Source: Bolinopsis microptera
Taxonomy: Eukaryota; Ctenophora; Tentaculata; Lobata; Bolinopsidae
Length of the DNA: 64,000 nt
NCBI RefSeq assembly: GCF_026151205.1
Contig: NC_087084.1
Span: 2,327,345-2,391,344 of the forward strand
Reading direction: 5' to 3'
In this document: piece after piece, positions 236 to 45,000 of the stretch
Position numbering within the stretch: the stretch's first letter is position 1
Layout: every line of letters begins with the position of its first letter
Translations under genes and position numbers: made by a program
The notes under the pieces: generated by a model
The model's input: the letters and a program-made list of their open reading frames with translations, nothing else
Databases searched by the model: none
What the model was told of the DNA's origin: nothing

Positions 236-1869
236 TAAATCGGACCCCTTAAATTATAGACCAGTTTCATTAACTTGTATTTTGTGCAAAGTGTATGAAA
301 AGTTGGTGAGAGCACATGTATTAAATTTTCTAGAACATCGAATTTCGAAGCATTAGCATGGATTTGTTAAGGGTAAATCGTGTTTATCTAATCTTTTAGA
401 AACATTTGATTACATTCTTGACATTTTAGATGAAGGTGCCCCGGTTGATCTTCTATACTTTGATTTTAGTAAGGCATTCGACACAGTCCCCCACTTTAGA
501 CTTCTGTCTAAATTGGAAGGCTTTGGTGTCAAAGGAAAGGTTTTAGATGTTATTAAAGATTTTCTGACAGACAGGACTATGAGGGTTTCTGTAGAAGGAC
601 AATGGTCCGAGGTTAAACATGTTTTATCTGGTGTTCCTCAGGGGTCAGTTCTAGGCCCTCACCTATTCATTCTGTATATTAATGATTTGCCTGACCTTTT
701 AAAAAATAAGATAAAGTTATTTGCTGATGATCTTAAATTAATTGGTAATGCAGCTAACCACGGTAGTGTTGCTGAAGATATCGAAGAATTAGAAGTTTGG
801 GAAAGTATTTGGCTTTTACAATTTAATCCTGCCAAGTGCAAAGTAGTGCACATTAATTTTAACAACAATCCTAATTTAAATTATAAGGTAAATGGTATAG
901 AACTTGAAGTATCTGCACAGGAAAAAGATTTGGGGGTTATTACCCATAGCTCCCTGCTTTGGAACGAACAGATCAAAGCATGTATCGCTAAGGCAAATCG
1001 TATGATTTGTTGGATTGTAAGGAATTTAGTTATTAGAGAAAAGGTTGTTATGATTGCTATATATAAAGCTTTAATAAGACCTCATCTTGAGTATTGTGTC
1101 CAATTGTGGAATCCACCTGCGGCTCATGGAAGTTGGGGGACTGTTTTGGAGCTGGAGAGCGTCCAGAGGCGGTTTACCCGTCTGATTGATGAGGTGGGTA
1201 CTCTTCCGTACAGCCGTAGACTGGAAATCCTCAATTTGACAACGCTGGCAGAGCGGCGAATACGTGGGGACCTTATTGAAGCTTTTAAGGTAATTAATGG
1301 TATGACTGATTATGGTTCAGACTTGTTCAGACCAAGCAGATCAGGTCTTAATCTGGTTTCATCCAATAGATGTAGTAAAAGTATGACAAAGGTCAAAAAT
1401 ATCCAGAAGTCTTTTCTCCCGGAGCGAGTTATTCCATATTGGAACAAACTCCCTCCGGACGTCAAGAACTCTGTGACAGTTTTAGGTTTTAAAATTAAAT
1501 TAGAAGGATATAAGATAGATATGATTTCTAAAAGTATTACAAATGATTGCTTTTTTTGGAATGTTTCTAATGAAGTTTTAGTAAGAATTGAGGGAGCCAG
1601 TTATGTCAGTAATAAAGAGAAACATAACAATTATCTTTGGTTCCATCCTTATGTGGCAAAGAAGCATTTTATAAATCTTTATTCCACTGGGAAGTTTTTA
1701 AAATAGGATAATGTTTTTGATGAAATTGTTTTTAAATATTGTATTTGATAATTAATTAATGTTGGTGGGGAAATATTTATTATATATTTTTTCACACAGT
1801 GCGATGATAGTTTGTAGACATGTGTGATGATGTGATGTCATAAATTTTACTTTACTTTACTTTACTTTA
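236..1869 (+). mobile_element. 5'-truncated non-LTR retrotransposon (CR1/jockey-like RT), decayed
   Basis: A single frame from about position 236 to the stop at 1706 encodes a reverse transcriptase and C-terminal region. Visible RT blocks in order are NYRPVSL, HGF, DFSKAFDTV, SGVPQGSVLGP and the catalytic FADD (near 720), followed by the KDLGV-type block and the conserved region usual in CR1/jockey-type elements. The endonuclease domain is missing, so the copy is 5'-truncated. An in-frame TAG at about 352, just before the HGF block, interrupts the ORF, so the copy is dead. The 3' end is a short TTTAC-unit tail at about 1845-1869, as expected for target-primed insertion. The clade is inferred from motifs only. 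Confidence 0.85.
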
Positions 1870-3266: not shown

Positions 3267-6200
3267 ATGAGTGATGATATTGTGGTGATGGAAGATGGTG
3301 AAAAGCATGGTCTACCAGCATTTCAGCGATCACGTCAGATCACAGACATATTTACAAATGTGGAGAGCATTCTTCCGAGCATGGATTTTTCAGACAATGA
3401 GACTGAGGATGATGATGACTCAGAATCTGTTAGTATTGATCATGAATCCTGAATTCATAAAAAAAACATCGACTTGATTTTGCTTAAATTGCCAATTGGT
3501 ATTCAACTATTAAATTCATCTTATCCTGTTAGGTTGAAGTTGTGACTCGGGAGTATAAACCTGTCATCACTCATGTCTCCAACAAAATTGAGGAAATAGA
3601 CAAGTCTGGTGATATCAACATTGAAGATGTCACCATTTCGGAGGAGTTTGAAAGTGTCAAGAATATTCATGGTAAATTTAAACACCCCTCATTATGGAGG
3701 TTTTACATTGCAACTTATCTTATCTATAGCTTTTGATGTATTCAATGTTCAGAAAATCATATTAAGAATTTGGTGATGTGTAATTATAATAATGAATCCT
3801 ATCAGAGCAAAAGGCCGAAAAAGAAATTACGGAACTTAGTGTTCACAGCTTCATTGACTCTCTTGTTTGCCAAATCGCTGAACAACCACCCTCTAAAAAG
3901 GTTAGTACTGATTTAGTAAAACCCTGATTTAGTGCGTCCCAATACTGCAAACCGCTGTTTATCACGGCAATTATCTTCCCAAATTAAGAATTAACATAAT
4001 ATAAAATATATATAAAATTGCGATTTATTACACAGACCCTGATTAACCACAGCTTTTATCTTTCCCCAAAGTCCGCAGTAAATCGGGGTTTTATATCATA
4101 TTATTAAAGTGTCAAAGAGACATAAGTGGTGTTGTTCCAGATTGGGATACCTAAGAATCGAATTATATTCTGTTCAGTGTGAAAACTTTCTTTTAAATTG
4201 ATTGTCAATAAAAATTGAGTCAGATCACTAAAGTTAATTCTGCGGTTTCAAATTAATTTTATGCTTTGTTTAACAAAAGCTACCTTGTGTTCATAAGTAT
4301 TGTTCTGATTAAAAGTGTTGGTTCATCTGTTTATAAACACTGAGATTAATTAAATTATGATTAATTATGATTATAATTATAATTAATTCACAGGCTCCAG
4401 ATTACAAGTTGGAGAATAACACAGATCTAGATCTCGATCAACTTATTGGTCTGTTGGAAAGCAGTCACGACATAAAAATTGAAGGTTTGTTGTTAAATTA
4501 ATATATTATTATTATATGAGTACATCAAAACTGTGGTACTATTCTTAACAGATACCCACTAGCCTCAAAGTTATCAGTCGTATATTTTGATAAACATATA
4601 TCACAATAATCTGTGAACATTTCAATCGTTCAAAATCATTACTAATATGCATATATCAAGATTATTTAAAATCTGACAGTTTTACCAACTAATTTTCTTG
4701 TAAAATACTTTATAAAGAAAAAAAGCACACGTTCCCATCAGTAAATAGCTGGTGAAAGTTGAATGAGTTTCCGCAGGGGCTTTATATTTGTCCACCATGT
4801 CAATGAACCGTCCTTCACTTCCCACTTTGTTTAAATTTCCTTTCAGCATCCTTTTCTGGGTATCTGTCAAGTCACTCAGTGGTTTTGTAGGAGGACCCAT
4901 AGGAAGACCTGTAAGAAATAAAATATTAAGATATTAACCCTGTAGGCTTACAGTGTACCTAGCACATCGTTAGTCGTATCAAATGTATAATTTTATGGTA
5001 TTATGGACCATGCACATTTATCATGTATATATGATGTACATTTGCCATATTTTTGCCTAATATCGGTGAATTTTACTCACCTACAAAATCCATAACATGG
5101 GTCAAAGAAGACATGAGTTCTTGGTCTACTATGATCGATTCCATGAAACCTTCCAAATCGTTTTGTATTACCTGTATAATGTTTTCAGTCATCTGGAAAT
5201 CGATTTCTAAAAACTATTGAGCTATGTAAAAACATTAAACTGATAATATCTTACTGTGTATAAAACGAGACGATATATATCTGTTGCCACTTTACTGACA
5301 CCACGACTTTCCGTCGAATGCTTGGGTCGAATGCTTTTATATGGGTTTGAGACCAGTATGAAGCAAATCGGAAAATATATAAATATTGTCTCTTGACACC
5401 ACTTTAGTGTTAGACCTGCTATGTTTGACTAGGGTATCAATAATTCCGCTTATAATATTTAGTGTATTTACCCTACACAAACCTTTGCTTTTCTGATGTC
5501 ACCCCTAAGCACGAGATCAACAATCCGCACCATGACACCGTTCACAAAGTTAGTTGGTCCCGTAATGAGAGACACTTCAGCTCCCTGAGTCTGGGCACCT
5601 ACAAGTGTCATGTTCGGGAACCCGAGAAATATCTTTAGATCCAGTTTCACCTTAATTAATTAATCAGTTTCACCTTAATTAATTAATTGGTTGATTAAGT
5701 TTCATCTGAATCAGAGGAGAGTTTTACAAAATACTGTGACAGCATGTTAACAATTCATAAAACGGTTTTAAACTCTTTGTTATGCTTATTTTTGGTATAG
5801 TTCCCTTATTTAGTGGTATTCATGAAATGAGGGTATTCGAGGTTTGCTTAATCAATATCTTACTAATTTCTTGTAAACACTTTCGTCATTGGCAGTGTAC
5901 TTTAAGCCAATGAAATTGCTAAGTCTTCTTTTGAGATTCTTCATAAGTTCGACTACATCATACTGCAGCCTTGTCAGCGAAGGAAAATGGTAGTACAGAA
6001 CTGGCTTTCCATTGCAGGCCTCTCCTTAGAAAGTAAAACATTATTCGGCAATGAAGTCTTAAAAATGTCAACCAGTTCAAACTTCAACTTATCATAAATG
6101 TGGGTCTTAGAGCCTAGCGCACACTGAAATATTTCTAATCATAATTTGATCTGACCTGCATCACACAGGAACTGGAGTAGTCCAGTGTAAGTGAAGTAAG

Positions 6201-8971
6201 GGTAGAACATGGGAGTGGAGAGCATAATCCCATCAACTCCTTCCATACCAGATAGGATCTCACACAGAGATAAGGTGTCTTGGTAGTTTACCCCACCTGT
6301 TGAATCATTCAAACTATGGGATCTCCCTTTAACTATCGTGAAAAATACTACTGTTGACATCATAACGTGAGATTTTTTTAAATATTCGAAAATATATGAA
6401 AATTTTTGAAAATGTTTGAGGAATAGTCATTTGTCTCTACCTGCATGAATGATGACAGCGATACGTCGATCAGCAGCTACAATGAAAGCTCTTGCTACAG
6501 CTAGTCTCTCAGTATTGGATAGCAGTAAACCCTGCCCTGCTGATCCACCAACTAGAATACCTAGATATACAGGGTGGTAATTTAATCAGGGCCACCTTTT
6601 ATATTCTGATTTCGATCCTGAACCTATGCTGGCAAGTTTACTCCCTAAACAACGAAAACTTATCATAACAAAGTTTAAATTATTATTTTGACAAACCGGT
6701 CACTCCTGAGTTGATGAGGTGGGTAATGTAACTGGGGATGATAGAATAGTTCACATTCCCTTCCTCGTTACGTGGTGTGAAGACGGGGGCCACATACCGG
6801 GCTGATAAGATCTTATCTCTGGTGTCCAACATTCCCGGTTAAAACATTTCCTTGTGGTTTTGAAAGAGGAAAATACACAGCTCTGTAGGACAAGCAGTCA
6901 CAAGTAGTCACAAGTAGTCAAAAGTAGTCACAAGTAGTCACAAATACTCACAAGTAGTCACAAGTATTCACAACTGGTCATGGTCACTGCTAAATAAACA
7001 GCACGATTAATCCTCTTCAAGACTACTCTAAAGGGGTAACATTCTCATTAACTGATCTCTGTTCACAGATAACAACTGTATTTTCAGAAGCAGAACACGA
7101 TAGTGACGAAGAAAGTGACAGCAGCACCAGTACTATCGTAATGGACGAGCTAGCTAGGTACTAACTACTAGATACTGTTATGTGTTGTTCAGATAACCAT
7201 AAGTTGTGGTTAATTCTACTCAGCGCTGCAATATTTTAAACATTAACTGCAATGAATACCGTACTTGTAAATTGTAAAACTGATTTTATATTCAATTACT
7301 AAATAGTGTTAGTGTGTTACTTATGGATTTATCAAAAAGGGCACCAATTTGTGATGTAATATTGGGGGAGGTCAATTTTGGCTAATTTTGGATTTCTTAG
7401 TGGATTTTCTTAGTGGATTTTCTTAGTGGATTTTCAAAAGTGGCCATAATTAGGGTGTCCATAATTAGCCAAAATTAGCCAAAATATACAAAAAATATAC
7501 AAAAAATGTTTTCAGGATTGCTGAAACGTATGATGGACTGGACAACACGCCTGCCACCCCACGTGCAACCACTCCAAACAGCCGTTCCAGCACTCCTAAC
7601 AACAAAGTAACAACACCTAACAACAAAATAACAACACCTAACACCAACCCAACAACACCTAAAAACCAAGATAAGAGTGAGCACGAAGCAAGAAGCTCCG
7701 TATTGGCTGATTTCTCTGAGAGTGCAGGTCAGTGCGTGGATTGAACTTGTTAGATAAGGAATTGTAAAATTGAATAAGGGTGTTGAATTTCTTGGCTAGA
7801 ATTTCTGAATAATATTACAGTTGAACAGCATTTTTTGAAATTATAAACCACGAAACATGAATCACTTTGAAGATATTAGTTGTTTTAAATCATACGGTCT
7901 TCTCTTTTCTATCTCATCCCATATTTTTAAAAGTTCGAATATTTATACACAATATAGATCATAATATCATTCCTATCTAAAAATTACCTTAAAATCGACA
8001 AGAGTATTTTATTTTGCTTTTATTTTGATTTTACAGGATCTCCAGATAAGACTAAAAGAGATACAGTTCTAATAGATCTACTTTTACAGGATCTCCAGAT
8101 AAGACTAAAAGAGATACAGTACTAATAGATCTACTTTTACAGGATCTCCAGATAAGACTAAGAGAGATACAGTACTAATAGATCTACTTTTACAGGATCT
8201 CCAGATAAGACTAAAAGAGATACAGTACTAATAGATCTACTTTTACAGGATCTCCAGATAAGACTAAAAGAGATACAGTACTAATAGATCTACTTTTACA
8301 GGATCTCCAGATAAGACTAAAAGAGATACAGTACTAATAGATCTACTTGTAAAAGGATCTCCAGATAAGACTAAAAGAGATACAGTACTAATAGATCTAC
8401 TTTTACAGGATCTCCAGATAAGACTAAAAGAGATACAGTACTAATAGATCTACTTTTACAGGATCTCCAGATAAGACTAAAAGAGATACAGTACTAATAG
8501 ATCTACTTTTACAGGATCTCCAGATAAGACTAAAAGAGATACAGTACTAATAGACCTACTTTTACAGGATCTCCAGATAAGACTAAGAGAGATAAGGTAC
8601 TAATAGATCTACTTTTACAGGATCTCCAGATAAGACTAAAAGAGATACAGTACTAATAGATCTACTTTTACAGGATCTCCAGATAAGACTAAAAGAGATA
8701 CAGTACTAATAGATCTACTTTTACAGGATCTCCAGATAAGACTAAGAGAGATACAGTACTAATAGATCTACTTTTACAGGTTCTCCAGGTAAGACTAAAA
8801 GAGATACAGTACTAATAGATCTACTTTTACAGGATCTCCAGATAAGACTAAAAGAGATACAGTACTAATAGATCTACTTTTACAGGATCTCCAGATAAGA
8901 CTAAAAGAGATACAGTACTAATAGATCTACGCCCCACTACACCTGAACCTACACTAAGACGATCTTCCAGG
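3267..8971 (+). CDS. Gene A exons 1-7: acidic, low-complexity N-terminus
   Basis: Exon 1 starts MSDDIVVMEDGEK and ends in an Asp/Glu run (NETEDDDD). Exons 2-4 are hydrophilic and probably helical (VVTREYKP, ELSVHSFIDSLV, LDLDQLIGLLESS). Exon 5 is another acidic Ser patch (HDSDEESDSSTST). Exon 6 is a Thr-Pro-Asn repeat (TTPNNK units, six or so). Exon 7 (SPDKTKRDTVLIDL...TPEPTLRRSSR) is the unit amplified in the 53-bp array just upstream of it. Phases run 0,1,0,1,2,1,0 and all join. No catalytic motif. Intron 4 (4485-7087) contains the complete antisense lyase gene. Confidence 0.78.
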
Positions 8972-11900
8972 GTAAAGAAGTTTAACGAGTTATCTGTTTT
9001 TAGCCAGTTATTTTTATTAGCCAGTCTTGAGCTTGTCTTTCTAGACTGTTTACGCGAAAAAAGTTGTTACGTTTATCATATTTTTGTCTGAATCGCGTAA
9101 AAAGTTTACGCGATTATTGAGACGAAAAATATGATAAATGTTATGAAATAATGAAAAATTATGCACATCGGTCTTGCATGGTAAATCAGTCAGTACGGAA
9201 AGTTAATAAGTAAAGATCCTATGTTGACCAGTTCTTTCTGAAACACAAGTTCATGTGCATGCTATCTGAATACAATATATGTACACATTTCATCCACTAC
9301 ACAAGCATTACTTCTACAATATGATGGTGTGTTGAGAGCAGCTTGTCAAGTACACTACAGGCATTATTGTCAATCTCCGAGCTTGTACAAATGAAAGTCC
9401 AGGTTCTAAGACGTTGATTTATTTATAGTAACAATTATTGGTCGTGACGGATAATGTTATTTTCAGAGGATTGTTCCGCCGTATTTGACGAAAAAGTTAC
9501 AAAGAGCCCCTTCAAGTGACAGGTAAATTAGCTGTCAAGGGAGAAAGTTGTGATATGGAATTTAAAGGAGCCTACTTAGTACTTATTGGCTGAATTTTCG
9601 ATCGAAAGAAACGTTTAAAATGACAATTATAGAATTATATATTGTATATGTTTCACAACAGTTTTTGGATGGTGGTGACCTTTGGTTGTTTTACATATTT
9701 ATGTATAATCTATAATAATAATATTGCAATTTATTTCTTATTTTAATTTCAGTGATGACGAGACCGAAGACATTGCTTGGGAAAGTATGAGAAGAAACAT
9801 GAAGAGTACTTCATTTTTTCCTTCTTCTAAATCTTGTGGCACCGATGAAAAGATAGACTCTCCCTCGACTAAACCTACAAGTGTGTCAACTGGTGTTTCA
9901 ACTCAAAGTTCTGGTGTTTCAACCCAAAGTACCGGAGTTTCAACTCAAAACACCGGAGTTTCAACTCAAAACACCGGAGTATCAACTCAAAGTACCGGAG
10001 TTTCAACCCAAAGTTTTGGTACTTCAACTCAAAATAGGATTTCCCTAAACAGAAACTCCGGAAACATCTCCACAACTGTCAACTCCAATTTTATTATCCA
10101 GGAAATGAACGGCTCAACAAGGGTTCTTAAATCATCAACAGAACTTAACACTACAACAGTTCAAACGAACGGATCTGCAACTGGGCGAGCTACTTTCTCA
10201 GATGATCAAAGTAATAAAGAAGACCTCCCATCCAATCTGAAAAGAACTGCTAGAACGAGATCCAAAGAAGGAAAGAGACGTTTAAAAAGAACATCAGACG
10301 AAACAAATGATCCAGAGAAGGCTTCAAACAAGAACAACACCGCTCACATCATAAACAAGAAGTGTGTCGCTTGGGCAGATGTAGTTGACAATAATCAAGG
10401 TAACGAAAACGAAATCGTCAAACAAAAGGATAATGCTCAAAACAAAACTCAAAAACAGATCGAGGATGAAATAATCGTAAAGAAGAAAAAAGAAGAAGGA
10501 GCGATCTTGAAATCACAGCGGTTGGAACAAATGAGAGTAAGAGAAAAACGGGCTGAGTACCGTAAGTAACTTATATATGTATAATACGTTTTTGTTAAGT
10601 TTGTTACACTATTAGATCATTCATGGCAATCATCCTACTATTGATTATTGAGTTATAAAAATTACCTGAGCTCCGGGAATTATCAAGCGGAGCCCGAAGA
10701 GCCGAAGGCATTATTATATTATAATATTTTCCGGTTCTCCGATTGGAAGGGGTGTAATCCGATACGTGCGCATGATACAATATAGTGTCTAATATATAGA
10801 ACGCCAGTGTTATTTGTTTTACAACTTGCCGCCAGCCAGTCTGAGGTCTATGCTGATAATACCTTGGCTTCCCTTGCGGGATATATCGGCAAATTATCAG
10901 CTCTCAGTGTCCGAGACTTTTAGTGGATATATATACATATCACCGGAGACTCGCGGGCGGAACAAAATATTGCACGCGCACGCGCGTGCAATATTTCATA
11001 TGTCCCCGAGGGCGCTAGCCCGAGGAGGACATATTTTCGTATAGCACGGAGGGCCCATTGGGCCCGAGTGCTATACGATTTTTCCGCCCGCGGGTCGAGG
11101 TGATGTGGATTATATCCACCAGCGGGCGTATTACAGTTAATATATAATTTTATAAATAAACAATGGAGCTTGTATAAAAGTCAACTATAGAAAAGGTCGC
11201 CACTAATTGTTGTAACCATGGTAACACGTCACGTGTTCAATGTAAGCCAATCATAAAGGGCTGTGTCGTATATAGGGGCTGGAGATGCACTGCATTCCTG
11301 GGCCGTGGGAATAATGAATGTAATGTCAGTGACGATGAATATCAATAATATAGGGGGATTATAGTGCTGATGTGTATCATTATGTAGTGTGTTATAATAA
11401 CTTTGATATATATCAAAGTATCATGTCATCTGATCACGAGCTGCATGAGCAGCCCTACCGGACACAAAAATAAAATGTATATAATATAGTCAGTGTAATA
11501 AGGAATTTCGAATTCACATGGATACAATACAGAAACTGAAAATATTTTAGAGAACTCCGGGCGATATTGCTACTGGTCAAATTAAATGTCACTTGTTAGC
11601 GGGCTATATCATGAGCGGGCTGTAGAGATATCGGGCCCTTTGACAGCGGGCTGGTGAGAGCCCGCTATGCGAAAAAGCGCACGCTGGTGGATATAATTCC
11701 CGGAAGGTATTATACCTTTAATAATAGCTTACACGAATGATATTCACCAGGAATAGTTAAAGACATCATTATTATGCCTCCACAATTGTTGTGCTGTATA
11801 GTTTGAATCCACATTTGCATTGTTCTGATTGGTAAAATTTAGTTTTCTTTACATAAAGAAACGGTCCGATCATAACCTGAAAAAAAATATTTGAAAACCT

Positions 11901-14900
11901 GATTCCTTCAGGGACGAGACTGGAAGAACAGAACCGAGACCGGTCATCCACCCAGCTTATCCTTGACATAGAGGAGAGTTACAGTGAAAGATTACACGAT
12001 GTGTCAGAAGACATGTTGGATAGCTGCACTGACCAACTACTGGTACTACAACTTATGATAGATAACCAAGGTGCGCGGGGCTAAAGTTTTGTTAATAAGT
12101 TACCTATTTTAAGTTTCTTAGTTTCTGTCATGTATCATATTATTAAGATATTACATTTTTATGATGTTGCGTTATGTTCTGATGATATAAATCAAGAGGC
12201 TTGCATATAATGAACATATTGACACGGGTGCAGAGTTGAGTCTGTACGGAACCTAGTAGTTTCAGATCCTTGTTTAACTTGCCGTACAGCAAGGTCATCC
12301 ACTACTTTAGCCCGGCGAGGCACATAACTCCCTCTACAACTCCATGACAAATGTTTCATATATACTAGCCGAGTTCACAAGAATATATCCTTGTGTTTGA
12401 GAAGAGCTCGTTAGAACTGCTTCCTTTCCCTTCAGTATCCCACAGTCTCTCGAGTTTCGTAACTGCCAGAGAACTCTCTTAAACAATTACTAGACTCGGT
12501 GATTATAAATCAAGAGGCTTGCATATAATGAACATATTGACACGGGTGCAGAGTTGAGTCTGTACGGAACCTAGTAGTTTCAGATCCTTGTTTAACTTGC
12601 CGTACAGCAAGGTCATCCACTACTTTAGCCCGGCGAGGCACATAACTCCCTCTACAACTCCATGACAAATGTTTCATATATACTAGCCGAGTTCACAAGA
12701 ATATATCCTTGTGTTTGAGAAGAGCTCGTTAGAACTGCTTCCTTTCCCTTCAGTATCCCACAGTCTCTCGAGTTTCGTAACTGCCAGAGAACTCTCTTAA
12801 ACAATTACTAGACTCGGTGATTATAAATCAAGAGGCTTGCATATAATGAACATATTGACACGGGTGCAGAGTTGAGTCTGTACGGAACCTAGTAGTTTCA
12901 GATCCTTGTTTAACTTGCCGTACAGCAAGGTCATCCACTACTTTAGCCCGGCGAGGCACATAACTCCCTCTACAACTCCATGACAAATGTTTCATATATA
13001 CTAGCCGAGTTCACAAGAATATATCCTTGTGTTTGAGAAGAGCTCGTTAGAACTGCTTCCTTTCCCTTCAGTATGACAGAATATTGCGATAAAAGATCAT
13101 GCTCTATAATAAAATACTGTACTTAACTTTGGTACCACTCTTAATTCTTATAACACTATTTCTCTGCCCCCACTATTTCCATACCTCATTTCATACTTAT
13201 ATTTGTTATTAAATTATCATTTAAATTATCATTTAAATTATTATTTAAATTATTATTTAAATTATTATAATTAAATTATGTATAATTCAAATTATCATTT
13301 AAATTGTTATAAAATAATTATTTTATTATTCCAGGAGAGTTATCCTCGCTACCACCAGAATACTACTCATACTGTTACAATGACATACCAACAGTTAGCT
13401 ACTACGGTACCGAGGGAGTTCTAACTTGGATGCTTACCTCTCAGAATAAGCCATTCCAAGTGATCGCTGCTAGACTTACTTTTATCAAGTTAGAAGTTAT
13501 TTGTATTAAGTTATATTAAGTTATATTAAGTTTTTTATATTAGCACATTTTATAGTAATCTGTAGTTTGGAGAGTGCTGTTTTGTCAACTCTGATAGGTT
13601 ATTAAATATGGGTACTAGTTTTTAAGACAGGTGCCAACTTGAATATACTGTAACCTGGTTAGCAGCTTTACTGAAAAGAAAAAAGCGATCTCTTAAAATT
13701 CCCTCTTGAACAAAAAACACACTCTGTATAAAATGTCCATGTCTCAACGATCCACCAAATAGTTTATTTCAGCAATTGTTTGACGTACGTGTTCCTGGTG
13801 AAGAGTTGCTCGAACCCTATCTCCTCTACTTTCTATAAAGATGTCGGACTGTACCTCTCCTCTCACTCCATAGCTCAGTCAGATCCCCAACTCTTCAAGT
13901 GAGAATACCACCAACTTTTAATAAAAGAAATGTGTTCTCCATTCTGATTTCATATCTGTTTTCTGATTTCATATTTTGTAAACCTCTTAAATCGGTTGGC
14001 CGTTCGCGTCAGCCAGTTTCTTACCAGTAGTAACTTACCAGTAGTTACCAGTAGTTACTTACCAGTAGTTACCAGTAGTTACTTACCAAAGTAATCATTC
14101 CCAGATCCACTCTACTGAACCCACGTGACTACCCGCTCTGTGAACCACTAAACAAGTTGTTCCTGGTATCTAAATACAACAAGAACTTGTGCACGTGGTT
14201 TACTGCTCAGCCTGCTTGGTATACGTGTAACTTGGCTCACGATAAGGTCAGTTCTCATTTCTATACGTGTAACTTGGCTCACGATAAGGTCAGTTCTCAT
14301 TTATATACGTGTAACTTGGCTCACGATAAGGTCAGTTCTCATTTCTATACGTGTAACTTGGCTCACGATAAGGTCAGTTCTCATTTATATACGTGTAATT
14401 TGGCTCACGATAATGTCAGTTCTCATTTATATACGTGTAATTTGGCTCACGATAAGGTCAGTTCTCATTTCTATACCTGTAACTTGGCTCACGATAATGT
14501 CAGTTCTCATTTATATACGTGTAATTTGGCTCACGATAAGGTCAGTTCTCATTTATATACGTGTAATTTGGCTCACGATAATGTCAGTTCTCATTTATAT
14601 ACGTGTAATTTGGCTCACGATAAGGTCAGTTCTCATTTCTATACCTGTAACTTGGCTCACGATAATGTCAGTTCTCATTTATATACGTGTAATTTGGCTC
14701 ACGATAAGGTCAGTTCTCATTTATATACGTGTAATTTGGCTCACGATAAGGTCAGTTCTCATTTATATACGTGTAATTTCTATACGTGTAACTTGGCTCA
14801 CGATAAGGTCAGTTCTCATTTATATACCTGTAACTTGGCTCACGATAAGGTCAGTTCTCATTTATATACCTGTAACTTGGCTCACGATAAGGTCAGTTCT

Positions 14901-17900
14901 CATTTATATACCTGTAACTTGGCTCACGATAAGGTCAGTTCTCATTTATATACCTGTAACTTGGCTCACGATAAGGTCAGTTCTCATTTATATACCTGTA
15001 ACTTGGCTCACGATAAGGTCAGTTCTCATTTATATACCTGTAACTTGGCTCACGATAAGGTCAGTTCTCATTTATATACCTGTAACTTGGCTCACGATAA
15101 GGTCAGTTCTCATTTATATACGTGCAACTTGGCTCACGATAATGTCAGTTCTCATTTATATACGTGTAACTTGGCTCACGATAAGGTCAGTTCTCATTTA
15201 TATACGTGTAACTTGGCTCACGATAATGTCAGTTCTCATTTATATACCTGTAACTTGGCTCACGATAATGTCAGTTCTCATTTATATACGTGCAACTTGG
15301 CTCACGATAAGGTCAGTTCTCATTTATATACCTGTAACTTGGCTCACGATAAGGTCAGTTCTCATTTCTATACGTGTAACTTGGCTCACGATAAGGTCAG
15401 TTCTCATTTATATACGTGCAACTTGGCTCACGATAAGGTCAGTTCTCATTTCTATATGTGTAACTTGGCTCACGATAAGGTCAGTTCTCATTTATATACG
15501 AGTGCAATTTTTAAGTTAGAATAACAAAAGTAACGAGTCAGTTTTGAAAATGGGTTTTACTTATTGGTTTTAAAAATGTACCGATAAGAGAGGAGAGTGT
15601 ATGATGTTAAGTCTGAGTTCTACAGATTTGCAGAGCGCCCTGCTGTCACATGTCTGTCACATGTCTATACAATACATGTCACATGTCTATACAATACATG
15701 TCACGTGTTGTCACGTGTCTATACAATACATGTCACATGTGGTCACATGTCTATACAATACATGTCACATGTGGTCACGTGTCTATACAATACATGTCAC
15801 ATGTCTATACAATACATGTCACATGTGGTCACGTGTATATACAATACATGTCACATGTCTATACAATACATGTCACGTGTTGTCACGTGTCTATACAATA
15901 CATGTCACATGTGGTCACATGTCTATACAATACATGTCACATGTGGTCACATGTCTATACAATACATGTCACATGTGGTCACGTATCTATACAATACATG
16001 TCACATGTGGTCACGTATCTATACAATACATGTCACATGTCTATACAATACATGTCACATGTGGTCACGTGTATATACAATACATGTCACATGTCTATAC
16101 AATACATGTCACGTGTTGTCACGTGTCTATACAATACATGTCACATGTGGTCACATGTCTATACAATACATGTCACATGTGGTCACATGTCTATACAATA
16201 CATGTCACATGTGGTCACGTATCTATACAATACATGTCACATGTTGTCACATTTCTATGATACAATCACTCTTCCAGGTTAACGAAGTCCACGGTACAAA
16301 GACAAAACAGAGGATGACACTGTCAGAGATACAGAACAACGTGTCCCCTGTTTCCAGTACTGAGTTCTGTGTTTCCACATTGGCTGGGGGCATTCTTACT
16401 TCTCAGGTATATAATATCAACATTCAACATAGACTGACAAAATTTTCTTATCGTCATTACATTTTGTTCGAAGTGGAACCTACCAAAAATCTACATACGG
16501 TTTCCTGAAAAATCTGTACGATTTCCTGAACGTTTACAAACGTTAAAATCTTATTGTTAATTATGTATATAATAATTGTTTTATGTATAATTAATAATTA
16601 AAAATCACTTACTCTGAGTAAATTATAGAACGTTCCGAGTGCAACTGATTTTCAGGCGGGTTTATTCTACGTGTTGTCGAGTATACGTGATACCCAGCTG
16701 GAGATATCAGCACTTAGACTGGTACAAACTGTATATACTGGAGTATACTGGAGTATACTAGAGTATACTAGAGTATACTGTCCGAGTATACTGGAGTATA
16801 CTGTATATACTGTATATACTGAAGTGCAACTGATTTTCAGGCGGGTTTATTCTACGTGTTGTCGAGTATACGTGATACACAGCTGGAGATATCAGCACTT
16901 AGACTGGTACAAACTGTATATACTGGAGTATACTGGAGTATACTGGAGTATACTAGAGTATACTAGAGTATACTGGAGTATACTGGAGTATACTGTATAT
17001 ACTGTATATACTGAAGTGCAACTGATTTTCAGGCGGGTTTATTCTACGTGTTGTCGAGTATACGTGATACACAGCTGGAGATATCAGCACTTAGACTGGT
17101 ACAAACTGACACATCTCAACAAACTCTTTGTCTGGTACTGTCAGGGTACTCGGCTATTGGCAAATGGTCAGGTAGGAATACATTAGTTGCTAGTTACTAA
17201 TTAGTTATTAGTTGCTAATTAGTATAGACATGAGTTACCTCCATGCCAGGGCATTCAACCTGGGATGAAATGAATGAAATGAGGTATCTATATCCCGCTT
17301 ATATGATTAACCAACAGCTCAAGGAAGGTGGTTAACCATGTCAGAGCGGCTGACTGTGAGTGATGTGAGCAAATGTGCAAAAATGAACAAGAGTATAACT
17401 CAATATAAGGCTAAGATTCATCTTTAGATTAAGATATTGCTTTCATACATTCGGTGAAATATGCACGTTCGTGTTATAATTTTCTAGCATTGTATATCGT
17501 CACCTACAAATAGAAAGGGCTTATGTCGAAAAATGTCGTTTTGAGATAATCAATAAAAACCTATTTACGGAAATGGAAAAAATGACTGGCCTACACTCTG
17601 AAAATGTTCCTGAAGCTTTTCAATTAATTGGGGTAATTGATTTAATTTTGACATAGGCCCTCATAGGCCCTTTAAAAAAATATTCAATACATAGGCCACT
17701 CTTAATTAATTGAAACATCTTACATGTGAGAATCGGTACAGGGCGTATGTGTACATAGGTCCTTTTAACTTTTCAAATTATTTCTTTAAACATCACATTC
17801 CAACAATTTGTTAGGGCATATGTTGACTTAGGCCCTTTCTACTTTTCAAAAACATCACACCTCAACAATTTGTTAGGGCATATGTTGACTTGGGCCCTTT

Positions 17901-23900: not shown

Positions 23901-26900
23901 AGAGTAGCATAGCCATAAAATGGTTTGTACGGAGTAATCCTCTCCCGACCCCGTGACTCTGCCAGCTACTATCACGTGACTATTGAATAGTAACTTTTTT
24001 CTCCTCGTCATGATGATGGATTATCAACCAAATCTGCGATAGAGTAGCACAGTGGCGTAAGGTTGCCTGTTGGCCCCCAATTTTAGTCACTTTTTTCGAA
24101 TTTCCGAGACCATTTTCCATTCCATTTATTTGATTTTTCCATTATTTAGCTAGTTTTGTTGTTTCCCATTTCGCACATAAATTCATACTTTAAAAGTTTA
24201 AAGTCAGGCATGTTGATTAAATGATTTATTACATTTAATGTCTCCCTGTTTGAATTCTAACGACGAGCCAACATTACATCCATCAGTTACATTACATAAC
24301 ATCAAATTTCTTAGTTCATGCAGTAGGATCCTGTGTACAGTTAGCAATATTTAACGGTTTATTATAACATAATATAGCAGCAGTTTTAAAAGTTCAATTC
24401 TAGAATTAAACTAGATGCAGATAGTACTGCCTGATGGGAAAAGGAAGTAAGAGAATGTTAAAACATAAAAGCAGTGGATTACACGTTTAATAGTCAAAGT
24501 AGCTCAGCAGTAGGAACGGTGATGTCACTATATTAATTATAAACAATGTAAGCTCAATAATATTCATGTCAAAATTCTGACTAAATTTATGGTAGACTAC
24601 ATTTGTCGTTTTTAAGGTATATTATACCGTAAATATGTTTTTTCCGCGAATATGCCGCGATTTTCGAAATTTTGGTTGCAATTTTAACAATTTTAGCTCA
24701 TCGCAGCGCCGCGATTTTTGGCCTAAATAATCACGATTTTCTTTTGTCCTTGTGTAGCTCTGTCTGATTTCCCGAACAAATTCAAAATTTTCACGAAAAT
24801 TGTTACCAAAAAAAGTAGCTCATTAATCATTATACGTTTTACGTAATTGTGAACATTTTGTATCAATATATTTTATTCATTACGTGCCTCAGAACTGTGT
24901 CCGTACTTGTGGTATAATTAGCCAGCATTTTGGGAATCGGTTGCGTGTTTATTTTTTCATAGCCAATTTGACAATTTTTAACGCCGTCTTAGGAATCCTT
25001 AGTTTTAATACACGCTAAATAGTACAATTTTACATTGTCTCCGTTAACAGAGTTGTCTTTGTTGATATTTATTTTAATGAAAGCGGGTAATTTACCCGCA
25101 TACATTGAAAATAAATTTCACCTGCTGGGTAAATAATATTCTGTTTTAACGAAACATTCTTGTAATGATCAGGTTACATTCTGTCGAACATGCAAACGAA
25201 CAACAAAACGCTATATGCTATCAGAGATAATGAGGAGCGGTCACTTCTTATATTGTGGAACTTTATAGTTATTCTGTCGTCACTTATAGGGGACAGTATC
25301 ATTTTGATAGCGACTATTAAGTACAAAGCCATCAAACTCCATAAAGTGATAATAACAGTAATGCAACACATGGCTGTTTGTGACTTATTACAAACAGTAT
25401 TCAGAGTGTTCCCTGGTACTCTGGCAATAATATCAGATCGTTCGGTTTTTGGAGTGTTACTCTGTCATGTGCAGGACAATGTTGGCTGGGTTTGCAATTT
25501 CGTGACAGTGCTTCTGACATGTGCTATGACCACTCTGAAACTGATAATAGTGAAGTATCCTCTGAGAACTAGTGCCTGGTCTACACGGTTAGGACATAAA
25601 ATCTGTTCTGCTGTGTGGCTCTTAGCACTTGGTGGGTGCACTCCAGCACTAGTATTGAACATGCTTTACATCAGAGACACAATCCACTTTGACTACATAG
25701 TCTATATTTGTCATTATGATCTCGGCTCACCCAGTGTACCAACCTGGTTCCCATGGTACTTTATTATCAGTGGTGCTGTGTTCGGTATCCTCCCCTCCAC
25801 CATACTCATCCTTACATCAGTTCTCCTCCTGATCGTGGCTAGTAGAGCTGCCTCCCGACACGGAATAAAAATGAGATGGGGAGGTGTGATGACAGTGCTG
25901 CTCACTGTCGGAGTGTTCTTTATATCTTACCTGCCATTCATTGCGACAAAACATTGGGGAGTTAAATACAGCACCACTTCCATTCGAGTAATGTTGTATC
26001 TCACTTACCTGAATATAATGTCTAACTTCTTTGTGTACTCCCTTACTGTGAGAAGTTTTAGACATTTCCTAAAAGTGAAGACATCCGAACTCTTTACCTT
26101 AATGAGGCTGTCCATGCAAGGAGGACGACAACTCCAACAAAGACATCAAAGACCAGTCGGGCAGAGACCATATCCAAGGCAAGATCCTCCAGAGGTGCAA
26201 GGTGATGATATCCTAACTCCTGCTGTAGAGCTACAAGGAATGCAGTTACAGGAAGATGAGATACAACAAAACTTCCCAGATATTGTGGATACGCCCGTTT
26301 AGTGTTCAATGAGACAGCTTCGTAATATTTTATGCATGAAAATGAAACTGCATTACTTATTACATAAATTATGTATCATAGTATTAGTGTTTCATTAATT
26401 GTACAATTTGTCATGTTCTTTCAATGTGACCTTCGATTTAAGAATCTTTACGGTGTCTTTTCTTATAATTTGCTATTCTTTTTTAACTTTTAAAAATTGA
26501 AAATGTTTCAATATTACCAATAATTACAGAACATTTCATTATTTTAACATCGTTCATAAGTTTTTGATAACTAATTGTTTTGTATCGATAAATGTAAATT
26601 ATGTGTTGCTTTTATCCTAGAATGGTGATTAGATCAAGTTAAATTAGTTAAAATGTAATTAAAATGTTTTGTGCGATAATGTTGAAGAAAAATTTGATTT
26701 ACTTTCATTGAAAATTATTTTGAAATCTTTCTAAGGTGACAAAATTTGCCTTTTATTTCGATTTCCGACATATTTTAACATATTTCAGCATATTCAACAC
26801 ATTTAACATAAACTTCAGGACACATTTTAACATATTTCAGCATATTCAACACATTTTACATAAACCTCAGGACGTGATAACAGAGAAATGTGACTTAGAA

Positions 26901-29900
26901 CAGATAGTGTTCGTAGCTCTTATCGGTAAAGATGTGGCCGCTACAGCTGGGCGCGAGATACACGCTTTCGTTCATTTCTGTGGTATGTTTCGTGAATTTT
27001 ATAGTCTTTTCGTGATGTTGTTCATGTCTACAAAAAACTCTTAGTATTTTCAATTAGTATATTTATTAATCAGAAATGTTCATCAGAAACATCACAACAA
27101 TGCGACCCATAAATAATGTTCCTATCCGTATATTACATATCTATATAATTATATTCAACTAACAGAGCAACTTAACTTTTCACAGACACGTTGGGAATAG
27201 AGGTACCAGAGAATGAGACAGGTCAGCTGGAACTGTTGGGAGTTAAACTCATCAGTAAACTTAACTCCTTCCAAGCTAGAGAAGTTACTCAGTACGAAGT
27301 GGGTGATCCACATTGGAAGAGTGACATTCAGTTCCTTCAGACAGGTACTTTGGGTGACGTCACCAAGTTTTTACCGCAGTATTTCTATTTCTTGCATATA
27401 ACTATTTAATACCTTTAACTCTTTGTGTCTTCGTTGATGATTAGGGACTGTCAATAAATAAATCATGTTTTCAAATATCAATTTATTACTGAACAATAAA
27501 AATCACATCAACCGAAACATTTTCCTTATCTTTTCAGTGCCCATAATCTCTCTGCTGTTCCGAGGAATCAACGCTTTCCAAATTATCAAACAGCTCCTCT
27601 CCCGCTCCACCACGTGCACTACTCCCAGCATCAGATCACGTGACGATACGCCTGCACGTGGGCGTGGATCACGTGACCATTGCAGCAGTATCATGTCAGA
27701 GACACCAGAACATGCGTACAAGCTAGCCAGTCTGCTGTTCTTTGAGAAGGAACTGTACAGTGACGAGATCATGAGGCCTAAACAATTACATCTACCCCCA
27801 CCCAGGACTCATGTTAATAGTATCATCAGCAAGGAGGGTGGGTACTTTCTGATCAACCACTAATTATATCAAAAATCATGCTATATTTTGTTGCCGGATA
27901 ATTGTTCATTATGTCAAATAAAGTTTAGCTATTTGCGCCCTAAAGCGAACCCTACCACCAATACTCTGAAACCAACTTTATTATTTCTCATTACCCAGCT
28001 CTTACCCCTCTAACCCCTCTAACCCCTCTAACCCTTCTAACCCCTCTAACCCCACAAACCCCTCTAACCCCACAAACCCCTCTAACCCCTCTAACCCCAC
28101 AAACCCCTCTAACCCCTCTAACCCCACAAACCCCTCTAACCCCACAAACCCCTCTAACCCCACAAACCCCTCTAACCCCACAAACCCCTCTAACCCCACA
28201 AACCTCTCTAACCCCACAAACCCCACAAACCCCTCTAACCCCACTAACCCCTTTAACCCTTCTAACCCCTCTAACCCCACAAACCCCTCTAACCCCACAA
28301 ACCCCTCTAACCCCACAAACCCCTCTAACCCCACAAACCCCTCTAACCCCACAAACCCCTCTAACCCCACAAACCCCTCTAACCCCACAAACCTCTCTAA
28401 CCCCACAAACCCCACAAACCCCTCTAACCCCACTAACCCCTTTAACCCCACAAACCCCTCTAACCCCACAAACCCCTCTAACCCCACAAACCTCTCTAAC
28501 CCCACAAACCCCACAAACCCCTCTAACCCCACTAACCCCTTTAACCCCACAAACCCCTCTAACCCCTCTGACCCCTCCACAGGAAGACACCACTTATCAG
28601 ACCTACCTGACAGACTAGTCTACCAATCAGAGGGGATACTGAAGAGCATGTTAGCTCCTCCCAGGCTACTCGCCTCTATCTTAGTGACGTCACAAGTTAA
28701 TCATTTTGGCAAGATACTCAAGAGGTTGGAACAAGAAGGTTAGAGGTGTAGACTGTCATTTGTGGTTCAACTCTTGAAGGATTAGATAATATATATTATT
28801 GTTAGCAAAGAAATTGTGTCTACTTTAGCTTTATTACTATGTTTTGATTTGTCGAAATTATTTCAAATGAGCACATTCTACTGTTGGTGTAGGTAAGTAA
28901 AGTTTTAATTAAAAAGTAACCAATCACACCCCTCCTCCAGAGTTTACAGTAGTAGGAGTACACCTAACACGTGACACGGACAGCATTGTGTTCTGTGTAC
29001 AAGCAGAGAACTGTATCTACAAGCTGCTGCAGCTGGTTGGACCTAAAGATCTTAAGGAGGCTAAATCTTCCCATCAGTTCTCGTTGAGGGCTTCTTTTGC
29101 TACACACTCCGACTCTTTTTATGGTATTATTACATAAAATAAAAGTTCTAAACAAGGGATAGTTAAAAACAACGCCCAAGTTTAATCTTTCCCTAAAACA
29201 CATAACTAAATATCAAAACTTCATTGTAGTTTCTGCCAATATCTCTTGTCATAAGCTCTTGTCAGATCAAAAATATTATTCATAGAAAGATTTCTTTTGC
29301 TACAAACTCCGACTCTTTTTATGGTATTTTAGTTTTTAATCAGCTTAACCCGAATACGATTAAATCTTTAAAAATTGATATTTCATGCTAACGACGTTAT
29401 AAACAATAAAGTTTTCATGAGATGTAATGGTCTAAAATTATTAATTTCAGCGTCCCCGACTTATAATGACAGTGTCACTGATGTAAAGAGATATTTCCCT
29501 GATGGACTGTGTTGTGCCAACACTCTTGATATGCAGGCTGAGGGGGTAGGTTCCTTACCATTAATACTAATTATCTATTCTTCATTATCATAAATCAGTG
29601 TTAAAGAAGATACCCTTACCCGGCCTGTATAGGCTATAATTCATTTTGCTATTCTATTTTATTTTATTGCGCTGTCTTCACAAATCCAAAGATAACACGG
29701 CGCCACCACGACGTCAAGTCAAATTCTCTATAAAACTTCCTCTTTTCACTCAAGAATAATAATTCCCAATGCTTCAGATTCCTCACTCCTACATAGACGA
29801 GTTGGTGAATACAGCGAGCGCTAGGAGATACGTATCCAGATCATATCCCTTGAAGCCTCTCCTCCAGACGGTGTGTGTTGTGTTTCCTCCTGATTTACTG

Positions 29901-32900
29901 AGACCCGCCAAACACATGCGCCTATCACCTGCTAGTCAACTCATCACGTAAGTTCTCCTGTCTTACCTTTCATTATTTTACCTTTCATTATTTATATACA
30001 GGGTGGCCCAAAAGTGACTACCCACACGCAACCTTTTAATAACTCACGTAATTCGTCTCCAAATTGCACCAAAATTTCAGAGATTATAGATATGGGTCAA
30101 ACCTAGATTTCCTGAAAGTTTCGTAAGCCACGCCCAATTACAGTGGGCGTGGCGTGACACTCCCTTTTTTCACTAATGTCTTCATAAAATGAGAAAGCTT
30201 TAAGATAAGTACTGAACATTTTTGCACACATTTGGCTTGATAATTTAAAACCTTTTCCAAAGTTTCAAGTTCATTGTTCAAAATTTGGCTGAGTTAAGAC
30301 TTAGTCTTAAGACCATTTCAAAATACATCGGATACGAGATCCGAGCACTCAGTCAGTGATCTCGTCACTTCATGGTTAAATATGGCCTGTTTGGATCACA
30401 TGCACCGCTTGATTGGTTGCAGCCTGCTTATGGGCCGGCCTATACAGCTGACAGGACCTAAAACGTTATAACACGAATTAATGGTGGTGTCACCGTTTCA
30501 GGGCTTGTTAGCCCTGCTAGTCACAGGTTCGTTCCTTACAATCAATAAAAAGGAATGAACCATCTATGCTGTAAAAAACACTCAGTTCATTTTGTTTATT
30601 CATTTCAAAATATTTTGTTACTTTAGCCGTGTAAAATGGTGAAAATTTTACAATTTGGATACTCAATTATTCACCTTAAAAATCATTCCTCACCATTATT
30701 CACCATTAAATTTCACCATTAAATTGATGTCTGTCTAGATAAAAAGTAAGTTGGAGTCAGCCCATGTAACAAATATTGTTAGTGCAGTCATTACTTTTCT
30801 TACATGGCAATGTTGCAATCTGGGAGGGGCTCTACTGCTCTTATCTCAAACTCAAAGTACGCTACTGTTTTAATTCTATGGCTGGAATGTTGGTATAATT
30901 TCCACTTGAGTAGCTCAATCCTTTACGCCCAGGGCTCCGATTTCTGAGTTCTGACACTGCAATTATTAATAGCTTCATACCAACTCACGGCACATATCTT
31001 CAGTGATTTTATAATGCAATGGCTTGAGTTACAAAATATTCTGAAGATATTGGGAAATGAAGTTACACGTACATCTGATAAAGATAACACTATACAATAT
31101 AATTTACAACCTTTTGTTACCGTGTGGGAGCGATTTATGCTGTTAAAAAACACTCAGTTCGATAAAAGAATTATCAGCTTGATAATTTAAAACTTTTCCC
31201 AAAGTTTCAAGTTCATTGTTTAAAATTTCGCTGAGTTATGACCATTTCAAAATCCATCGGATACGTGATCCGAGCACTCAGTCAGTGATCTCGTCACTTC
31301 ATGGTTAAGTATGGCCTGTTTGGCTCACATGCCCACTGTAATTGGGCGTGGCTTACGAAACTTTCAGGAAATCTAAGTTTGATCCATATCTATAATCTCT
31401 GAAATTTTGGTGCAATTTGGAGACGAATTACGTGAGTTATTAAAAGGTTGCGTGTGGGTAGTCACTTTTGGGCCACCCTGTATTATTCAATAATATTATA
31501 TTATTCAAATATACAATATTTCATTATTTTCATCAGCAATATCGTGCATTAAACTATTAAAATCTTGTTTTATTGATATTTCTGATTGGGACAACGTACT
31601 GTTAGATTAGATGATACTCAATAATGACACTAGTTAATTGTTTTGAGAGTGAGCTAATTAATTAATTAATTGTGTAATTACACAGGATGATACAGAGTTG
31701 TCAGTTTGAGATAGTGAATGTGCGGCTGTTGACAATACCCACACTCCAGATACAACCCTTCAGAACTCTCTTTAAAGTGCACTACGAGGTTATTAAGCTA
31801 TTGATCAAGTGATTGATTAAGTAATTAAGTTATTCATAAATAAATTAAGTAATTAATCAAATAAGTGATTCATCGTTAAAAGAAGATCAACGAAAATGTT
31901 CTGTTTGATTTCAAGTGATTGTTTGGAATTTTCTGATTTGTTGGTAAGGCTATCTTCTGATTTTTAGTACAGTTTAAAATAAACCTAGACCGAGTAAGTT
32001 ATATTACCCTCATGTCTCATCTTATAACCTTTCAGTTGAGTCAGACTTTCGTTAACAGACCCTGTCTTTTATTGGTGCTTCAAAGAGAAAACGCAGCCTC
32101 CTGCTTTTCACAAATCTTGCAAGGGTTAGTTTTACTTACTTGTACTTGATTAGGTCTCCTCAATCATTCGAGTGGCCTGCACCAATGAACTCCCGTTTGT
32201 GACGTATCATCTCCCTCCAAAGTTTTCGGTCACTAGCCATCTTGCTCGCTCCTTCTAGGTCTATGTCAGTGTTTCCTGTAAACGATGCAGCATCTTCCAG
32301 CAAACATTTCCTCCAGTTCTTTCTTGGACGGCCCCTAGATCTTCTCCCATGGGCAGGGGTCCAGTTAAGCAGGTACTTAGGAAGCCTAGTGTCTGGCATT
32401 CTGGTGACATGGCCAAACCAACGCAGGCGGTTTGCTCCTATGTACGTCTCTACTGGATTTATCTTTGCACGCTCCAGCACTTCAGTGTTTCTAACCCGAT
32501 CGAGCCATCTTATCCTAAGTATTCTCCTCAAGCAACGCTGATGGAACACCTCAAAGCGATGTAGCTGCTTTTTGGTTGTGTTCCAAACCTCACTACCATA
32601 TAACAATATTGTCAAAACCGCTGCCTTATAAATCCTGATCTTTGTATAAGACTGGATGTTGCGGTTTTTCCATATATTACTCAGTTGATTGAAGGCTCCG
32701 GAAGCTTTCTGAATCCTAGCTGACAGCTCACGGTCGATAGTACCGTCGCTGGAAATAATTGTACCTAAGTACGTAAAGTCACTAACTTGCTGCACTGGCG
32801 TGTCTTCAACAGTGATGTTCACTGTGGCTTCTTTCGTGTATGGCCGTTGAGAGGTTGCTTTACCAATGACCATAGCCTCAGTCTTTTTACCATTGATTCT

Positions 32901-42042: not shown

Positions 42043-45000
42043 TGTTCAATGAGACAGCTTCGTAATATTTTATACGTAAAAATGAAACTGCATTACTTAT
42101 TACATAAATTATGTATCATCGTATTAGTGTTCCATTAATTGTACAATTTGTCATGTTTTTTTTTTCAATGTGATCTTCGATTTTAGAATCTTTACGGTGT
42201 CTTTTCTTATAATTTGCTATCATTTTTTAGCTTTTGAAAATTGAAAATGTTTCAATATTACCAATAATTCAATATTACCAATAATTTTAACTTTTAAAAA
42301 TTGAAAATGTTTCAATATTACCAATAATTACAGAACATTTCATTATTTTAACATCGTTCATAAGTTTTTGATAACTAATTGTTTTGTATCGATAAATTAT
42401 GTAAATGTGTTGCTTTTATCCTAGAATGGTGTTTAGATCAAGTTAAATTAATTAAAATGTAATTAAAATGTTAATTAGATTAAAATTTTGTGTGATAATG
42501 TTGAAGAAAAATTTGATTTACTTTCATTGAAAATTATTTTGAAATCTTTCTAAGGTGACAAAATTTGCCTTTTATTTCGATTTCCGACATATTTTAACAT
42601 ATTTCAGCATATTCAACACATTTAACATAAACTTCAGGACACATTTTAACATATTTCAGCATATTCAACACATTTTACATAAACCTCAGGACGTGATAAC
42701 AGAGAAATGTGACTTAGAACAGATAGTGTTCGTAGCTCTTATCGGTAAAGATGTGGCCGCTACAGCTGGGCGCGAGATACACGCTTTCGTTCATTTCTGT
42801 GGTATGTTTCGTGAATTTTATAGTCTTTTCGTGATGTTGTTCATGTCTACAAAAAACTCTTAGTATTTTCAATTAGTATATTTATTAATCAGAAATGTTC
42901 ATCAGAAACATCACAACAATGCGACCCATAAATAATGTTCCTATCCTTATATTACACATATATATAATTATATTCAACTAACAGAGCAACTTAACTTTTC
43001 ACAGACACGTTGGGAATAGAGGTACCAGAGAATGAGACAGGTCAGCTGGAACTGTTGGGAGTTAAACTCATCAGTAAACTTAACTCCTTCCAAGCTAGAG
43101 AAGTTACTCAGTACGAAGTGGGTGATCCACATTGGAAGAGTGACATTCAGTTCCTTCAGACAGGTACTTTGGGTGACGTCACCAAGTTTTTACCGCAGTA
43201 TTTCTATTTCTTGCATATATAACTATTTAATACCTTTAACTCTTTGTGTCTTTGTTGATGATTAGGGACTGTCAATAAATAAATCATGTTTTCAAATATC
43301 AATTTATTACTGAACGATAAAAATCACATCAACCGAAACATTTTCCTTATCTTTTCAGTGCCCATAATCTCTCTGCTGTTCCGAGGAATCAACGCTTTCC
43401 AAATTATCAAACAGCTCCTCTCCCGCTCCACCACGTGCACTACTCCCAGCATCAGATCACGTGACGATACGCCTGCACGTGGGCGTGGATCACGTGACCA
43501 TTGCAGCAGTATCATGTCAGAGACACCAGAACATGCGTACAAGCTAGCCAGTCTGCTGTTCTTTGAGAAGGAACTGTACAGTGACGAGATCATGAGGCCT
43601 AAACAATTACATCTACCCCCACCCAGGACTCATGTTAATAGTATCATCAGCAAGGAGGGTGGGTACTTTCTGATCAACCACTAATTATATCAAAAATCAT
43701 GCTATATTTTGTTGCCGGATAATTGTTCATTATGTCAAATAAAGTTTAGCTATTTGCGCCCTAAAGCGAACCCTACCACCAATACTCTGAAACCAACTTT
43801 ATTATTTCTCATTACCCAGCTCTTACCCCTCTAACTCCTCTAACCCCCTTTAACCCATATAACCCCACAAACCCCTCTAACCCATCTAACCCCTCTGACC
43901 CCTCCACAGGAAGACACCACTTATCAGACCTACCTGACAGACTAGTCTACCAATCAGAGGGGATACTGAAGAGTATGTTAGCTCCTCCCAGGCTACTCGC
44001 CTCTATCTTAGTGACGTCACAAGTTAATCATTTTGGCAAGATACTCAAGAGGTTGGAACAAGAAGGTTAGAGGTGTAGACTGTCATTTGTGGTTCAACTC
44101 TTGAAGGATTAGATAATATATATTATTGTTAGCGAAGAAATTGTGTCTACTTTAGCTTTATTACTATGTTTTGATTTGTCGAAATTATTTCAAATGAGCA
44201 CATTCTAGTGTTGGTGTAGGTAAGTAAAGTTTTAATTAAAAAGTAACCAATCACAACCCTCCTCCAGAGTTTACAGTAGTAGGAGTACACCTAACACGTG
44301 ACACGGACAGCATTGTGTTCTGTGTACAAGCAGAGAACTGTATCTACAAGCTGCTACAGCTGGTTGGACCTAGAGATCTTAAGGAGGCTAAATCTTCCCA
44401 TCAGTTCTCGTTGAGGGCTTCTTTTGCTACACACTCCGACTCTTTTTATGGTATTTTAGTTTTTAATCAGCTTAACCCGAATACGATTAAATCTTTAAAA
44501 ATTGATATTTCATGCTAACGACGTTATAAACAATAAAGTTTTCATGAGATGTAATGGTCTAAAATTATCAATTTCAGCGTCCCCGACTTATAATGACAGT
44601 GTCACTGATGTAAAGAGATATTTCCCTGATGGACTGTGTTGTGCCAACACTCTTGATATGCAGGCTGAGGGGGTAGGTTCCTTACCATTAATACTAATTA
44701 TCTATTCTTCATTATCATAAATCTTTCATCAAGATACCCTTACCCTATCTAGGCTATAATTCATTTTGGTATTCTATTTTATTTTGTTGCGCTGTCTTCA
44801 CAAATCCAAAGATAACACGGCGCCACCACGACATCAAGTCAAATTCCCTATAAAACTCCCTCTTTTCACTCAAGAATAATAATTCCCAATACCTCAGATT
44901 CCTCACTCCTACATAGACGAGTTGGTGAATACAGCGAGCGCTAGGAGATACGTATCCAGATCATATCCCTTGAAGCCTCTCCTCCAGACGGTGTGTGTTG

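Follow-up and report, generated by a model that had tools for sequence, protein, structure and literature searches.

The 64,000-nt stretch of the ctenophore Bolinopsis microptera analyzed here (NC_087084.1, positions 2,327,345 to 2,391,344 of the forward strand; hereafter, the window) carries a predicted 14-exon gene in which the end of exon 12 and the beginning of the following intron form the first copy of a long tandem array of donor-like sites (Table 1). The array consists of a 42-bp unit (TATACGTGTAACTTGGCTCACGATAAGGTCAGTTCTCATTTA) repeated head to tail, and, given the gene model, every unit is shown to repeat 27 nt of modelled exon end, the donor position, and 15 nt of intron start. The donor reads AAG|GTCAGT in 23 of the 30 copies and AAT|GTCAGT in the other seven (copies 5, 7, 9, 11, 22, 24, and 25). 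Relative to the start of exon 12, all 30 candidate exon ends fall in one phase, the frame is kept across a partial copy lying between copies 13 and 14, and it stays open until the stop codon that closes the single-copy tail. In the assembly, which comprises 264652675 bases in 232 contigs, the 27-base core with the AAG form was matched 23 times, always inside the array. These results bear out a first-pass annotation of this DNA, which had described about 30 in-phase donor-like sites in a stop-free 42-bp unit whose length is a multiple of three, with one or the other donor form in each copy. The same annotation had extended the array over 14105-16406; an array does lie there, but it is confined to 14220-15494, and the remainder is made up of the start of exon 12, a second array (15655-16258), and exon 13. 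This second array lies in the same intron, before the exon 13 acceptor, and is built of near-palindromic CACATGTG/ATGTCACATGT units. Since it is open in three frames, and since one of the two other frames over the donor array is also free of stops, the openness of the donor array is in itself weak evidence.

The two donor forms differ in predicted strength. Duplex energies with the 5' end of U1 were -6.5 kcal/mol for AAG|GTCAGT and -1.3 kcal/mol for AAT|GTCAGT, in agreement with the annotation's view that the AAT sites are weaker. The 11 other scored donors of the corrected model, a set without exons 7 and 10, ranged from -3.4 to -10.7 kcal/mol, and the AAG donors are thus of ordinary strength for this gene. 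Because the AAG donors are identical in 23 copies, strength cannot choose among them and position must. The units themselves are nearly uniform, with variation in 6 of the 42 columns. Among the five non-singleton variable columns, all four combinations were present in 6 of 10 pairs; moreover, copies 5-12 form a haplotype run of 3-4-5-6-3-4-5-6, and copies 15-21 are seven identical units. Such runs and identical blocks show that the array has undergone block duplication and exchange. The AAG/AAT difference corresponds to column 27 (G/T), and considering that so few columns vary, it represents one polymorphic column shuffled among copies and not 30 independent histories. Therefore, of the earlier suggestion that the copies are diverging in donor strength, the two strengths stand but independent divergence does not.

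Table 1. Positions within the window of the modelled gene, its exons 12 and 13, and the arrays at its exon-intron boundaries.
Feature	Position	Strand	Remarks
Gene model	3267..17171	+	14 exons; 840 open codons; GT-AG at 13/13 introns
53-bp acceptor array	8029..8930	+	intron end plus exon start; 17 units by Tandem Repeats Finder (TRF), 16 with TTTTACAG|GATC
Exon 12 of model	14105..14246	+	142 nt to first donor; acceptor tcattcccag|ATCC, donor GATAAG|gtcagt; open frame joined to neighbors
Exonic part of repeat copy 1	within 14105..14246	+	last 27 nt of exon 12
42-bp donor array	14220..15494	+	30 copies
Partial copy	14766..14780	+	15 bp
Single-copy tail after donor array	15495..15524	+	ends in in-frame stop
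Exon 13 of model	16278..16406	+	open only in phase 0, matching every array donor
185-bp array	16638..17108	+	three copies of intron end plus exon start (TRF 2.5 copies); exon starts 16656, 16841, 17033

Two more arrays of the gene span a boundary, and both duplicate acceptors. In the 53-bp array, reading from 15 of the 16 acceptors ends at a stop 29 or 47 residues on, and an open exon is obtained solely from the last, exon-proximal one (exon from 8886). In the 185-bp array, the first and third acceptors are open to the donor but in different phases (lengths of 516 and 139 nt), the middle one meets a stop, and only the third copy then runs into the whole of exon 14. A working gene of the modelled form has to select the exon-proximal site in the 53-bp array, and in the 185-bp array too if the donor at 17171 is to serve in one frame. 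Altogether, three of eight arrays in the gene span a boundary, where random placement predicts 1.14 (P 0.057), too slight an excess to argue for special targeting of boundaries within this gene; these eight were hand-picked from the TRF list for units of at least 21 bp, with shorter units and rows of about two copies omitted save for the 185- and 318-bp arrays.

We consider it probable that the 42-bp array is a mirage, i.e., a minisatellite-like tandem duplication of an exon-intron boundary, whose first, exon-proximal donor is normally used while copies 2-30 are spliced out as intron. The first duplication would have begun between two similar flanks, TATACGTGTAA at the beginning and TATACGAGTGCAA beyond the final copy, and the array would then have spread by unequal exchange. 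The spliceosome would define the exon from the acceptor before 14105 to the nearest good donor, and since this is the donor of copy 1 (14246), a 142-nt exon would result, the later copies would normally be removed, and the protein would read ...CNLAHDK|VNEVHG... across the exon 12/13 junction. Were copy 2, copy 3, or a later one occasionally used, the protein would gain 14 residues per copy; we see such use as noise about the first donor, not as a designed ladder, and because the unit is 42 bp and free of stops, it would be tolerated rather than destroyed. An exon-proximal rule of this kind would also account for the tolerance of the acceptor arrays, and it agrees with what is reported on splicing in lancelet genes that bear mirages (PMC3087553, PMC3902484).

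The upstream side was examined for eight other donor arrays, all on contig C1. In three of them (L041, L040, and L046), a recognizable exon ends at the first donor. The exon of L041 (31-bp unit) encodes a C2H2 zinc finger (E 5.5e-7), and those of L040 (34-bp unit) and L046 (mostly 54-bp unit) are Sushi-like, with E values of 0.024 and 0.0026 that are below the Pfam cut-off. Past the first donor, a stop follows after 7 residues in L041 and after 3 in L046; for L040, a stop is reached after 12 residues when idealized units are read, and in the window's array a stop is never reached. Exon-ending donor arrays are therefore productive only at the first donor in two of three cases, partly readable in L040, and readable throughout in the window. 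Spacing is not a multiple of three in six of the eight arrays (32, 34, 31, 47, 28, and 46), mostly 54 bp in one, and variable around 54 in another. L040 (C1:400782) and L046 (C1:428574) are two related Sushi-like exons located ~28 kb apart, each with its own donor array; since their unit lengths differ, the sequences suggest that the two arrays may have arisen by independent births at homologous splice sites.

Several points weigh against normal use of the first donor. Use of a downstream donor would be productive in the window's array, since its frame stays readable throughout. When equal 5' splice sites compete, as in classic tests, the intron-proximal one can be favored. In L040, the 297 nt examined past the first donor are without a stop: copies 2 and 3, in which the motif is altered, shift the frame, and the next AGGTNAGT, 102 nt on in copy 4, is in frame and open. 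Arrays L039, L042, L043, and L044 have no clear exon upstream, and the stretch examined for L045 began inside the array and held no recognizable exon; with five of the eight lacking one, a mirage is not demonstrated for all donor arrays. As a hint of translation, five of the six variable columns of the 42-bp unit fall on codon position 3 (hypergeometric P 0.011). Finally, in the published work, mirage copies are regarded as potential cryptic splice sites (PMC3087553), and human IFI6 (6-16, G1P3), with a minisatellite of multiple donors (Turri 1995), is described as splicing from two of its downstream repeats (PMC4526556).

The codon-position bias and the open copy 4 of L040, together with the single phase of all 30 donors, the lack of stops, the 23 identical nonamers, and the precedent of three mRNA species from the IFI6 repeat donors (PMC4526556), could be taken to favor a different outcome, in which several donors are used at comparable rates and proteins differ in 14-residue (YTCNLAHDKVSSHL) steps, their length set by allele and chance. 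However, within the same gene, the 53-bp acceptor array yields an open exon solely from its exon-proximal copy, and two of the three other exon-ending donor arrays stop at once. Divisibility of a unit by three is a 1-in-3 event, and most of the other donor arrays lack it. As for the bias in codon position, five of seven variable columns of the 53-bp acceptor array, used as a control, also fall on position 3, and since that array is largely uncodable, with 15 of 16 copies hitting a stop, we rejected the bias as a sign that the donor array is translated. Nor is the number of synonymous variable columns (three of six; P 0.088) unusual. We therefore regard use of several donors at comparable rates as unlikely, and the isoform ladder, or choice among equal sites, put forward in the first-pass annotation finds no support, the evidence leaning toward the exon-proximal site. 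It is scarcely credible, in our judgment, that the array is essentially exonic, with the last, intron-proximal donor in use and ~29 extra repeats in the protein. The frame is indeed open through copy 30 and its phase fits exon 13, but the exon would have to be 1375 nt long, when the model's 14 exons have a median length of 139 nt, and published mirages keep the regular boundary (PMC3087553, PMC3902484).

Another alternative is a faulty gene model or a decaying locus, with the array never spliced as drawn. No Pfam, PDB, or protein-database match was found for the corrected conceptual C-terminal part; the protein-database search returned 1613 candidates with none at E 10 or better, from a database that may not cover such organisms. 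Earlier, imperfect gene models likewise gave nothing above cut-off, and their best stray matches, to a coat protein (E 1.8), a LAM6 fusion (E 0.11), and DASH_Dad1 (E 0.023, below its cut-off) were rejected. When the assembly was searched with an earlier version of the C-terminal part, nine matches were obtained, all at this locus, and neither this search nor that for the 27-base core revealed a second haplotype in the assembly. Because no relative was found for the C-terminal part, the modelled exon structure relies solely on open frames and GT-AG sites; in addition, the 3' limit of the model at 17171 is provisional, and some model donors pair weakly with U1, e.g., that of exon 1 (-3.4 kcal/mol). 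Even so, the 14 exons join as one frame of 840 codons with GT-AG at every intron, and we consider an erroneous model or decaying locus quite improbable.

Donor-like motifs in tandem extend well beyond this gene. Across the genome, three AGGTNAGT separated by gaps of 10-40 bases were matched 3375 times on the plus strand and 3441 times on the minus strand (6816 in total), whereas the composition-matched control, the same triplet pattern reversed, gave 195 and 185 (380). The single motif was barely enriched (20637 + 21283 = 41920, vs. 18935 + 18700 = 37635 for its reverse). All of these counts are lower bounds on overlapping matches, and because the matches overlap, long arrays weigh more. The triplet matches listed fall in seven arrays with units unrelated by eye, all in the first 2.51 Mb of C1; extrapolated from this region, were it typical, the genome total would be roughly 700 donor arrays. 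A pattern built on the acceptor motif TTTTCAG gave 379 and 362 matches, vs. 113 and 79 for its control. The resulting enrichment of donors over acceptors as arrays (x18 vs. x3.9) is suggestive only, since the acceptor pattern differs in design, it is limited to short units, and one 47-bp family makes up most of the matches listed for it. Near-identical 47-bp units with TTTTCAG form arrays at C3:10522198-10525882 and from C3:10725660, ~200 kb apart, among the matches listed. In a small sample comprising 22 stretches of 10 kb and the window, 55 arrays were kept, and AGGTNAGT was found only in two rows of the window's own array; one sampled stretch (L017) had a G+C fraction of 0.09 and is probably mostly masked.

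Since the donor arrays share little but the donor motif, and since donors seem to be favored over acceptors, these data could point to a duplication process linked to donors. It is conceivable, though we hold the idea only tentatively and think it rather doubtful, that 5' splice sites serve as birthplaces of minisatellites throughout the genome (by extrapolation, several hundred arrays) by way of such a process, and that stop-free arrays with units that are multiples of three leak a ladder of 14-residue steps.

Other features of the window include open pieces on the minus strand at 4682-6838, inside intron 4 of the gene model, which could be a nested gene; one piece (6139-6585, searched with one letter mistyped) gives a match to dihydrodipicolinate synthases that is weak and below cut-off (E 0.006). 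Retrotransposon-like reverse transcriptase frames are present at 357-1706 (+) and 32160-35471 (-) (Pfam RVT_1, E 8.5e-22 and 1.3e-25, respectively), and a 377-codon frame at 25169-26302 (+) resembles a seven-helix receptor by eye, with no Pfam match above cut-off. Regions 26767-27863 and 42586-43684, ~15.8 kb apart, share a 52-bp repeat and each hold a 133-codon frame, the two frames being near-identical; they are likely a segmental duplication.

With 23 identical donor nonamers competing on one pre-mRNA and position relative to the exon as nearly their sole difference, the 42-bp array amounts to a natural experiment on 5' splice-site choice, and the genome-wide excess of donor arrays makes site choice testable at many loci together. 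That excess also raises the question of why donor-like sequence seeds minisatellites far more than does a composition-matched motif. If it is true that only the first donor serves everywhere, the arrays would be strong natural evidence for exon definition; if it is true that readable arrays leak, they would make protein length variable in a way that depends on minisatellite alleles.

Human IFI6 has a repeat unit of 12 bp. As predicted for the 42-bp unit, which holds an in-frame donor, its repeat units serve as 5' splice sites at an exon end, and in-frame extension is possible; IFI6 differs in that it is described as using two downstream donors (PMC4526556), whereas for the 42-bp array such use is hypothetical. 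Human duplicated genes also carry tandem repeats where exons meet introns (PMC2812944), and a potato gene gained an intron through tandem duplication (PMC4974935). In these cases, too, duplication of a boundary can alter gene structure, but no new intron is evident in the window, where the array looks simply intronic. Our literature search did not turn up a genome-wide count of donor arrays in the partial texts covered, which is no claim that none exists. The closest known counterpart is the mirage of lancelets, with the same anatomy, both boundary types, and the same proposed neutrality. Lancelet mirages have been described in Adh3, the globins BflGb6 and BflGb9, TnC, and PGBD5, and splicing of the Adh3, globin, and TnC genes is reported not to be disturbed by them (PMC3087553, PMC3902484). 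They are minisatellite-like tandem duplications that hit donor and acceptor boundaries alike, and many of their units retain the AG/GT signal. Here, too, a tandem unit spans an exon-intron boundary, as predicted by the gene model, and many units keep the signal (23/30 AG|GT and 7/30 AT|GT). Lancelet units measure 10-160 bp, compared with 42, 53, and 185 bp here, and copy numbers are 30 and 16 here vs. 6 and 3 reported for BflGb6. The 42-bp array differs from lancelet mirages in that its unit is stop-free and a multiple of three.

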